Source: Thermobrachium celere DSM 8682 (GTDB lineage: Bacteria; Bacillota; Clostridia; Clostridiales; Caloramatoraceae). From it: a stretch of DNA of 51,227 nucleotides. The notes beneath the pieces are model-generated. The model was not told the DNA's origin, made no database searches, and saw nothing but the letters and a program-made list of their open reading frames with translations. A program made the translations under genes and the position numbers. This document shows, in pieces, positions 7,191 to 45,825 of the stretch. Within the stretch, counting starts at the first letter, position 1; each line of letters opens with the position of its first letter. Where the stretch lies: contig NZ_HF952039.1 in assembly GCF_000430995.1 (NCBI RefSeq), positions 2,879 through 54,105 of the forward strand, in the 5' to 3' direction.

Positions 7191-7685
7191 TCATATTTTT
7201 ACATCTTCAATTACCCTAATCCACTCATCCAAATTGTTAACAACAAAAACTTCTTCCCTGCCATCTATGGTTTCAATTTCAAGTCCTTTCCTTATTAATT
7301 TAGCAATTAGTTTCTTTTTTAATTCTTTTATATCTGATAACTTAATTATTGTTTGATGAGGCCTAAGATTATATTTATGTGATTGGAAAATAAGTTCATC
7401 TTTAGTTAAAAACAGCCATCCACCTGCTGCTTCAAATTTAGTAAAATGATTAGCAGGACCGTTATAAATTATTTCTTTTCCATTTGTTATCTCTAATCCA
7501 AGCCTTTTAAACTTTTTATTTTGAAAGTACATAAAAATACCAATAAATATTCCAAAAAAAATTCCTGCTAATATTCCTTTAATAATTCCCTTAAATAATG
7601 ATAAGGTTATTAGAGAAAAAAATATACTCATAAAAAAAGCAAAAAGTAAAGTTGCATAGACTGTAGTTTTAATAGCACTTTTCAT
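7191..7685 (-). CDS. Small membrane protein with a GRAM-like domain
   Basis: About 164 residues. Two adjacent hydrophobic segments (about 8-32 and 35-55) form an N-terminal hairpin anchor. The C-terminal half resembles a GRAM/PH-like fold: NGPANHFTKFEAAGGWLFLTKDELIFQSHKYNLRPHQTIIKLSDI, then a beta-rich end. GRAM domains usually bind membranes or lipids; no enzymatic motif is visible. ATG at 7685 is chosen because AGGAG lies eight bases upstream; the in-frame GTG at 7694 overlaps that site. Function is unknown. It is the first gene after the repeat-rich region. Confidence 0.7.
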   Translation of the reverse strand: MKSAIKTTVYATLLFAFFMSIFFSLITLSLFKGIIKGILAGIFFGIFIGIFMYFQNKKFKRLGLEITNGKEIIYNGPANHFTKFEAAGGWLFLTKDELIFQSHKYNLRPHQTIIKLSDIKELKKKLIAKLIRKGLEIETIDGREEVFVVNNLDEWIRVIEDVKI

Positions 7686-7792
7686 TTTATCCACTCCTAA
7701 TTTGTAAATATATTTCCATTTGTAAACTTTCTACACAAACAATATAATTCCTTTTTATAGATGTGATTTTTTAAAAAATACCATATTATAAC

Positions 7793-7882
7793 AAAAAGGA
7801 AGAGCCTTAATTTACTCTTCCTTTTTTGAGCAAGTTTATTTTATTTTGAAGAAGTTTAATTGGAATTGAAGGAGTTTTTTTG
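7793..7882. repeat. Direct repeat copy A (about 90 bp, pairs with 8411-8499)
   Basis: This stretch closely matches 8411-8499: both begin AAAAGGAAGAGCCTTAA, carry a GGAAGAG...CTCTTCC hairpin, then TTTAATTGGAATTGAAGGAG and end in a run of T before G. I count only scattered substitutions and small indels. The hairpin (about 7798-7825) is terminator-like. Confidence 0.75.
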
Positions 7883-7891
7883 GGAAAAATA

Positions 7892-7953: not shown

Positions 7954-7976
7954 TGGAAAATGTCACATTTCACCTG
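7954..7976. repeat. 23-bp sequence identical to 42880-42902
   Basis: All 23 bases, starting TGGAAAATGTCAC and ending TTTCACCTG, are identical to the hairpin arm beside tRNA-Ser(CGA) at 42880-42902. At 42.9 kb the sequence continues directly into GGTGGCACTT. Here that continuation appears only at 8509-8525, after 532 bp. Confidence 0.9.
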
Positions 7977-8508
7977 TTATCGTCAAAAAAACTCCTTCAA
8001 AACCACCCCTTTAAAACCCTTGAAAAATCTACCTCCCATATAATACCAGTAAAAAAACTCCTTCAAAATTCTCAAAAAAATTTCCAATTTTTATCCTTTA
8101 TTTTCCAAATTAATATATCGAAAAAGAAAATAAAGTTGTTCAAAATTTAGGGTGGGTAAGGGATTAGTTTTTTAGGGTTATAGGATTTATAAGGGAATAG
8201 GATTTTAATAAGATAGGGGTATATCTTTTTCTGATATTTAATCATATTTTTTCTCTATCAAATCCCTATTTCCTTAACACTTGATTTCCCTCATTTCTAA
8301 TTCCAAATCAATCCTCTTTATCAACTATAATCCTATATAACTTAAACCCTAAAAAACTCCATACCCTAACACCCTATCTTCCTATTCTCCTGAAATCCTA
8401 AAATTATACTAAAAGGAAGAGCCTTAAATTTACTCTTCCCTTTTGAACGACTTTATTTTCTTTTGAAGGAATTTAATTGGAATTGAAGGAGTTTTTTTGA
8501 GGAAGACA
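7977..8508. mobile_element. Putative MITE-like insertion with terminal inverted repeats and 7-bp target duplication
   Basis: This 532-bp AT-rich segment has no convincing gene. Near its ends are perfect 18-bp inverted repeats (TCAAAAAAACTCCTTCAA at 7983-8000 and its complement at 8483-8500), each 6-8 bases from the edge. TCACCTG flanks it on both sides (7970-7976 and 8509-8515). Compared with the uninterrupted sequence at 42880-42912, the segment behaves as a clean insertion with a 7-bp duplication. The inside is rich in imperfect inverted repeats, for example AGTTTTTTAGGGTT near 8165 against its complement near 8345. No transposase is encoded, so it would be non-autonomous. The identification rests on this single comparison. 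Confidence 0.55.
8411..8499. repeat. Direct repeat copy B (pairs with 7793-7882)
   Basis: The second copy of the roughly 90-bp repeat forms the right end of the putative insertion, including its inverted terminal repeat. Copy A lies just outside the insertion's left end, so it could be the remnant of another, older copy of the same element. Confidence 0.75.
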
Positions 8509-8525
8509 TCACCTGGGTGGCACTT
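8509..8525. repeat. 17-bp sequence identical to 42896-42912
   Basis: TCACCTGGGTGGCACTT matches exactly the segment next to tRNA-Ser(CGA). It runs to the recR stop codon (8524-8526). It is read as the right half of the repeat interrupted by the 7977-8508 segment. Confidence 0.88.
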
Positions 8526-9117
8526 ATATTTCTCTTCTTCCCTCTAATGCCTTAAGTAGTGTTACTTCATCTGCATATTCTATGTCTCCACCTACTGGAA
8601 TTCCATGGGCTATTCTTGAAACCTTAATACCAAGAGGCTTAATAAGTCTTGCTATATACATTGCTGTAGCCTCGCCCTCAACATTTGGGTTTGTTGCAAT
8701 GATAACTTCCTTAACCTCGTCATTCATTCTTGATAAAAGTTCTTTAATCTTTATATCATCTGGCCCAATACCTAGCATTGGAGATATTGCACCATGAAGA
8801 ACATGGTATAAACCCTTGTATTCCTTTGTCCTCTCCATTGCAATAACATCCTTGGGCTCCTGAACGACACAAATTGTACTTCTATCCCTTGCTGTATTTG
8901 AACATATTACGCATGGATCTGTATCTGTTAAATTACCACATACAGAGCAATATTTTATTGATGCCTTTGCTTCTATTATGGCATCAGCAAGAGATTCAAC
9001 ATCTCTTTTGTCCATATTTATGATATAAAAAGCAAGCCTCTGGGCTGTTTTTGTTCCAACGCCCGGAAGCTTTGATAGTTCTTCAATTAATTTCGCAACT
9101 TTAGTAGGATAAAACAA
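8524..9117 (-). CDS. recR: Recombination mediator protein RecR
   Basis: 197 residues, full family length. In order: an N-terminal helix-hairpin-helix ([23 protein letters not shown]), a four-cysteine zinc finger ([16 protein letters not shown]), a Toprim domain ([16 protein letters not shown]...[22 protein letters not shown]) and a C-terminal Walker-B-like stretch ([24 protein letters not shown]). RecR loads RecA with RecO and RecF at gaps and breaks. It follows ebfC by 12 bp in the conserved dnaX-ebfC-recR order. The stop codon touches a dispersed repeat, and the usual next gene, yaaL, has been displaced. Confidence 0.98.
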
Positions 9118-42859: not shown

Positions 42860-42912
42860 CCCAGGTGCATGGGACATTATGGAAAATGTCACATTTCACC
42901 TGGGTGGCACTT
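42860..42912 (-). terminator. Hairpin repeat downstream of tRNA-Ser(CGA)
   Basis: CCCAGGTG (42860-42867) pairs with CACCTGGG (42897-42904), and the inner sequences (GACATT/AATGTC) extend the stem. On the minus strand it is followed by ATTTATTTTTT, so it is a plausible tRNA terminator. Part of it (42880-42912) is found again, split in two, around 7954 and 8509 beside recR. Confidence 0.7.
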
Positions 42913-45423: not shown

Positions 45424-45825
45424 ATGTGTTATTTTATGTTTGTTGAAACAAACAGCAGTATTAATGAAGATGTTATTCTAAGAAACGAAAAAAGTAGCCT
45501 ATACGTACAAAACTTATCTAATATAGTAAAAACTAAATATGATAAATTGTATCACATAAGCAATGGACACTGTGCCTGTGACATAGTTGTAAGCCCACAT
45601 AGATTAACCGAAAATGTTCTTGATATAATAAAAAATATAGATGGAGAATTTAAATTTATTATCATTGACAGCAACAAAGAGGATGTAGAACCCCTACTTG
45701 AAGAAAATAATGATTTTGACATGTTCCTTTCAAAATTTAAATCAGAAGAAATTAGTTTAGATGAATTTATAAAAAAATACCCAAAGGAAATACAGTTTGA
45801 TGTGTTGTATAAAATAAAGAGGTAA
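45424..45825 (+). CDS. Hypothetical small protein with a HCxC motif
   Basis: 133 residues, not recognised. It is soluble, with no signal peptide, and contains an HCAC motif within ISNGHCACDIVVSP (about 46-59), which could bind metal. The second half (KEDVEPLLEENNDFDMFLSKFKSEEISLDEFIKKYPKEIQF) looks helical and acidic. AAAAGGGGTGG lies upstream of the ATG, so it is likely expressed. It is a one-gene unit ending at a bidirectional terminator shared with the DUF948-like gene. No function can be assigned. Confidence 0.7.
   Translation: MCYFMFVETNSSINEDVILRNEKSSLYVQNLSNIVKTKYDKLYHISNGHCACDIVVSPHRLTENVLDIIKNIDGEFKFIIIDSNKEDVEPLLEENNDFDMFLSKFKSEEISLDEFIKKYPKEIQFDVLYKIKR

Follow-up and report, generated by a model that had tools for sequence, protein, structure and literature searches.

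The window, a stretch of 51,227 nucleotides from Thermobrachium celere DSM 8682, contains on its minus strand the gene recR (8524–9117), whose product carries the RecR Pfam domains. Adjoining its 3' side we located a segment of 534 bp at 7975–8508 (read on the plus strand), with its left tip at 7975 (TGTTATCGTC..) and its right tip at 8508 (..GAGGAAGACA), corresponding to TGT..ACA termini. The right, dense end faces recR, its tip lying 15 bp past the stop codon. The segment holds no open reading frame of 100 aa or more, in keeping with the original prediction of a gene-free segment, and its tips are flanked by an exact 5-bp target-site duplication, TCACC, read from the sequence at 7970–7974 and 8509–8513. 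An insertion of 532 bp with a 7-bp duplication, TCACCTG, had been proposed at this place; insertion and duplication both stood, whereas the lengths had to be corrected to 534 and 5 bp. A duplication of 5 bp is the preferred reading, since it gives TGT..ACA tips; the additional shared TG beside TCACC is assignable to the target or to the tip.

The insertion interrupts a dispersed repeat, whose left (7954–7974) and right (8509–8525) parts rebuild the uninterrupted copy at 42880–42912 (TGGAAAATGTCACATTTCACCTGGGTGGCACTT), all on the plus strand. Excising 7975–8508 together with one TCACC restores this sequence, confirming the proposed split of the repeat into 7954–7976 and 8509–8525. Allowing up to 3 mismatches, we counted 67 copies of the pattern GGAAAATGTCACATTTCACCTG in the 2.64-Mb assembly and 0 of a reversed control, and the window holds two copies of the repeat as against none in shuffles. 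In at least three of its copies (the 42880 region of the window, L012 and L031) the repeat (AGTGCCACCCARGTGAAATGTGACATTTTCC) is part of a short palindrome, and it is sometimes paired around different transposase-like genes. That it forms the ends of one insertion sequence is doubtful, as the transposase-like genes differ between two pairs of equal spacing.

Perfect 18-bp inverted repeats at 7983–8000 and 8483–8500 start 8 bp inside the element tips. Direct reading verified this part of the original prediction. When the window was resampled 100 times under a first-order Markov model, no 18-bp inverted repeats up to 700 bp apart arose; in the real window the scan returned this pair plus two short hairpin-type clusters near 45807 and 48815. 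Each end contains three similar repeats, following one another in wide steps on the left and in 20-bp steps on the right. A pattern search with AAAAAAACTCCTTCAA gave matches without mismatch at 7985, 8051 and 8483 and with three mismatches at 8463 and 8443. On the plus strand of the left end, the putative TnsB-type sites are thus site 1 (7985–8000, AAAAAAACTCCTTCAA), site 2 (8051–8066, 66 bp inward of site 1) and site 3 (near 8126, spanning 8122–8145, with GAAAATAAAGTTGTTCAAAA within it), the last being an inverted repeat of right site 3. The putative sites of the right end lie on the minus strand: site 1 at 8483–8498, site 2, 20 bp from it, at 8463–8478 and site 3, a further 20 bp away, at 8443–8458. 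All six sites are kept in six of seven aligned miniature elements (minis), the seventh, G015, being without the outermost left site as aligned. The ends of Tn7 carry dense TnsB sites on the right and sparse ones on the left, terminate in TGT..ACA and are bordered by a 5-bp duplication. The window element shares with Tn7 and Tn7-like transposons (TnsABC with TnsD/TniQ) these tips, the 5-bp duplication and several TnsB-type sites per end, dense on the right and sparse on the left.

Just inside the right end we found a hairpin with a T-rich tail (8411–8443, minus strand; −14.9 kcal/mol, z −3.2), terminator-like in the direction of recR transcription. Folding of the right-end hairpin in six selected copies gave z-scores between −2.5 and −5.3, with three different stem sequences occupying the same place. 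This variety of stems at one place therefore suggests a kept terminator facing recR, and the hairpin of the element may serve as the terminator of the recR operon.

Searching 40 genomes, the own included, with the window element as query yielded a match at E 0.001 in 13. We fetched the loci of 8 of the 12 other genomes, leaving out G002, G005, G009 and G035 with short weak matches. The match lies directly after recR and in the same orientation in seven of the eight, adjoining recR at all seven fetched loci of the own family; the eighth is a glmS island on contig C57 of G023. Of the 17 family genomes surveyed, 16 gave recR; its 3' end is readable in 15, and in 13 of these 15 a Tn7-like right end follows recR, the right end thus being proximal and at a near-fixed distance from a conserved gene, as for Tn7 and Tn7-like elements. 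G009 and G011 have recR without such an end. The 16 correctly set spacers between stop codon and tip (12 family genomes, 4 others) measure 11–16 nt, all except one falling within 13–16 nt; by eye we read 15 nt in G001, 14 nt in G491 (tip TATATAACCC) and 16 nt in G023. Despite the near-constant length, the spacer sequences are unrelated between genomes. A sample of 60 genomes of the class contained recR in 56, with a right end at 7 of 29 readable recR ends, the window's own included; these ends were read from the 30 best of 57 recR matches, L245 having no readable 3' end, and tips were accepted at up to 2 mismatches without a shuffled control. With up to 2 mismatches allowed, the motif of tip plus first site has four matches in the window, all at the recR locus, against an expected 0.33.

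Farther from recR and in the same orientation, a second Tn7-like element is represented by an older right end (7776–7887, minus strand), with a decayed tip (TAT for TGT). Over 112 nt it is 78% identical to the new right end; it scores 55.7 bits at 7824–7887 and contains AAAAAAACTCCTTCAA without mismatch at 7866. Apart from it and the element itself, the genome yielded only short fragments of these ends. The expectation that the ends would recur was partly borne out, as the genome holds only this end remnant, at the same locus, while copies sharing these ends exist in relatives. Beside the older right end, a gene at 7191–7694 encodes a GRAM-domain protein with no match in the recR locus of G003; this gene is possibly leftover cargo.

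Two relatives inform on the age of the insertion. In G013 a mini directly abuts the tip of an older right end, which agrees with repeated insertion at a fixed distance. In G003 the mini occupies the same place in the same dispersed repeat and, judged from this shared position, the window insertion probably predates the two species. Among six solo minis of the window's type, the exact duplication is present in the window copy only, G013 matching at 4 of 5 positions and G003, G004, G014 and G015 at 0–2. Age and decay fit the poor duplications of the other solo minis, without proving this cause.

Short, devoid of a coding gene and bounded by terminal inverted repeats and a target duplication, the window element resembles a miniature inverted-repeat transposable element (MITE), except for the many dispersed copies: the genome has one full copy and one end remnant. 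Neither tnsA, tnsB and tnsC nor a target selector gene is present in 7975–8508, and no TniQ or TnsB was found in the genome, so that we file the element only as a non-autonomous derivative. No TniQ was found in the five genomes of the own genus, nor any TnsB in a search without positive control; with both searches empty, a full Tn7-like element elsewhere in the own genome was rejected. A search with the Pfam model Mu-transpos_C had no match in any control genome and hence carries no weight. No autonomous element with exactly the site sequence of the window (AAAAAAACTCCTTCAA) was found, the sites of cousin elements reading AAATAAACTCCTTTCA, and the helper is accordingly taken from these cousins. 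Across 225 genomes of the order, the exact site pattern with one mismatch matched 17, the own included, and one of 13 further matching loci, that of G023, contains a site array; a longer site pattern retrieved a single record from genome contigs, Caloramator proteoclasticus. A profile of 10 right ends matched 52 of 391 class genomes at E 0.01, many of them weakly, and its best match outside the own genus was again the glmS island of G023. As no tns genes were found, the window copy should be immobile at present, and with one full copy per genome there is no sign of spread. The original prediction of a transposed non-autonomous element is supported by these data, which add the family, Tn7-like, and the fixed distance after recR.

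Autonomous relatives were identified in other Clostridia. Of 218 genomes of the order, 46 gave a TniQ match, none of them among the five of the own genus. The TniQ on contig C31 of G023, a TniQ-TnsD protein (PF15978, E 6e-62), stands behind TnsA, TnsB, which has the C-terminal domain of Mu transposase, and TnsC (TniB/AAA); this autonomous relative matches the TnsA, Mu-transposase-C, TniB and TnsD Pfam models. Nearly full-length TnsD proteins 74–88% identical to that of G023 are encoded in G277, G491, G438, G304, G243 and G366, the G304 gene being interrupted by an internal TAG stop. Proteins of 81–84% identity are present in G006 and in G007, the latter lacking tnsA and having broken copies of tnsB and tnsC; the TniQ of G012 is of a more distant type (41%). 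With the G023 TnsD as query, 12 of 391 class genomes matched at E 1e-60 or better. In the five genomes with recR and this TnsD on one contig, TnsD invariably lies downstream on the same strand, at about 4 kb (G007), 37 kb (G491), 39 kb (G366), 81 kb (G304) and 135 kb (G438); the two genes are on different contigs in G006, G243, G023 and G277. A right end directly follows recR in eight of the nine genomes with this type of TnsD, the ninth, G243, having none in the 220 bp after recR up to the contig end. The original prediction had called for a search for a transposase with matching ends: tnsABC with tnsD was indeed found at recR in other Clostridia, the exact site type of the window was not.

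In these Clostridia, both borders of the islands that carry tnsABC, tnsD and defence genes are occupied by R..L minis of about 445 bp, similar in design to the window element. One mini follows recR and another lies beyond the tns genes in the same orientation in G304, G366, G491 and G438, with a third between the two border minis in G491. In G007 a partial mini (190 bp) adjoins recR and a whole one occupies the far side; the two minis of G277 are on separate contigs, and in G012 the recR-side mini is present. The recR-side mini of G438 is split by another Tn7-like element, a 71-kb stretch (C1:154494–225305) with an exact 5-bp duplication (GAAGT), a right end of another Tn7-like type with AAAAAACTCGTGTCACG sites and a second TniQ within. 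In nine aligned sequences each, the body starts next to the mini with a conserved TATAGTTAGGATTAAGG.. and ends next to the mini with ..CCTGTATCTA or a near match.

For the whole mini-body-mini units we then placed the tips 10 nt outside the first site, having chosen this rule with the sequences in view. An exact duplication was present in two of five units (G366, G277, G438, G304 and G007, without G491). The unit of G366 is flanked twice by ATATT, and that of G277 twice by ACTTG, its left tip then reading TAT, not TGT, and its ends lying on different contigs. In G438 the same five bases are present but shifted by two, and G304 and G007 have no exact 5-bp duplication. Around the four single minis of G366 and G277 no duplication was found. 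With an exact duplication around 2 of 5 whole units and 0 of 4 single minis, it would appear that full elements possess long direct terminal repeats, each of which forms an entire mini-transposon. Separate insertion of the proximal mini before a normal Tn7-like element was disfavoured, since both inner body flanks are conserved and the single minis have no duplications. The bounding minis of G366 (C15:11179–11622 and 54703–55155) are identical over 442 aligned bp, while the best matches of other minis differ by 6–22%; the identity suggests recent conversion or copying between the ends.

Comparing the island cargo with PADLOC models, we obtained matches, some weak, for 16 of 19 chosen proteins and none for three, a model match not being proof of a working system. 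The G023 glmS island encodes a DUF499/DUF3780/DUF1156-methylase/helicase set and a CBASS-type set, the G366 island type I restriction-modification genes and the G438 island a HamB-like helicase. On contig C57 of G023 the glmS-linked island (L087 1924–12820, L142) has minis and right ends of the window's type at its inner borders, and the same end type is therefore present at a second attachment gene.

Taken together, the segment 7975–8508 is very probably a non-autonomous Tn7-like mini at a recR attachment site. A TnsABC transposase would have inserted it 15 bp past this gene under the direction of a TnsD-type (TniQ) protein that recognises recR, presumably by binding its 3' part. Either this helper acted in trans or the window copy is the solo remainder of a recombination between direct-repeat minis; we place about equal weight on the two, each slightly short of an even chance. 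Solo LTRs are terminal direct repeats left alone with the original target duplication, and by analogy a full recR island could have lost its body through homologous recombination of its two direct-repeat minis. Full elements in other Clostridia have a same-orientation mini at each border, and the outer 5-bp duplication of such a unit would persist exactly as it does in the window. The body-start TATAGTTAGGATTAAGG and body-end CCTGTATCTA are absent from the flanks of the window mini, again as a solo remainder would have it, whereas no full-length element of the window's site type was found beside recR, six of six copies of this type being solo. For the mini having transposed alone as a MITE of the Tn7 family, with TnsABC and TnsD in trans, speak its two complete ends with an exact duplication and the mini of G013, which abuts an older right-end tip like a second fixed-distance insertion (duplication 4 of 5). 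Yet its helper was not found in the genus, the genome holds no full copies elsewhere and the exact duplication is missing in five of six solos.

That the segment is a MITE of an ordinary single-transposase IS family that came to lie near recR by chance, we regard as highly improbable: it is short and gene-free with inverted repeats and a target duplication, but it has several internal sites per end, lies at a nearly constant distance from recR in different genomes with its right end nearest the gene, and is linked to tnsABC-tnsD. Hardly any room is left for an ancestral, vertically inherited and immobile terminator region in the recR operon. Such a region would adjoin recR in most of the family and contain a hairpin, as is the case, and the G003 copy in the same dispersed repeat makes the insertion probably older than the two species; nevertheless, the segment splits a dispersed repeat and is bordered by a target duplication, is missing in G009 and G011, and shares its design with minis that border islands and occur in the glmS island of G023. 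For the Tn7-like mini, the order of events at the locus would be as follows. An older Tn7-like insertion came first, leaving the right end at 7776–7887, the short palindromic repeat then came to lie between this end and recR, and finally the palindromic repeat would have received the mini, either directly or as a full element that subsequently shrank to it. More broadly, we lean towards a Clostridial Tn7-like clade with recR as attachment site and direct terminal repeats of about 445 bp, each a complete mini, of which the solo minis would be scars.

Arrays of TnsB sites have served to locate the boundaries of Tn7-like elements (Benler et al. 2021, PMC8649781), and the described attachment genes include glmS, tRNA, parE, yhiN, comM, guaC, yciA, ffs and rsmJ (PMC11406308, PMC10293859). 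As a whole word, recR is absent from the main text of the latter two papers, whose supplements may list it, and in the main text of PMC8649781 it occurs once, in a reference title. A literature search for recR with TnsD returned PMC8649781 only, and one for recR with Tn7 and Clostridia returned nothing; we found no publication naming recR as a Tn7 attachment site, supplementary listings being possible. Among the matches listed, we recognised no title describing miniature or non-autonomous Tn7-like elements or composite or tandem TnsB ends, and the literature searched gave no description of a modular direct-repeat-mini design of Tn7-like defence islands. The system differs from Tn7 and Tn7-like elements in its attachment gene, recR, in a window copy without genes and in autonomous relatives bearing a whole R..L mini as a direct terminal repeat of about 445 bp at each border, whereas defence genes among the cargo of these relatives are a shared trait. 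Like bacterial MITEs (PMC10969869) and Tn3-derived TIMEs (PMC4133298), as described there, the window element is short, gene-free and presumably mobilised by the helper of a larger transposon; unlike them it belongs to the Tn7 family and resides at one gene with one copy per genome. A lone terminal direct repeat that keeps its original target duplication likens it to a solo LTR, with the difference that it derives from a DNA transposon in which each repeat is a complete transposon with two ends.

If these readings are correct, recR joins the genes used by Tn7-like transposons as safe landing sites, and the recR-type TnsD is a candidate new guide for site-specific insertion. The islands would consist of modules with self-mobile direct-repeat borders, so that any DNA between two minis would be a mobile unit and recombination between minis would swap or remove defence cargo, amounting to a modular, cassette-like building and rebuilding of defence islands. 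A right end about 15 bp after recR could then serve as a marker for past and present islands in Clostridia.

For the recR-side right end of G010 no left half was found, and just beyond this end, at about 2600–2900 of L081, lies a CRISPR-like array with the repeats GTTTCCCTCCCTCATAGGGACGATATAAAC.
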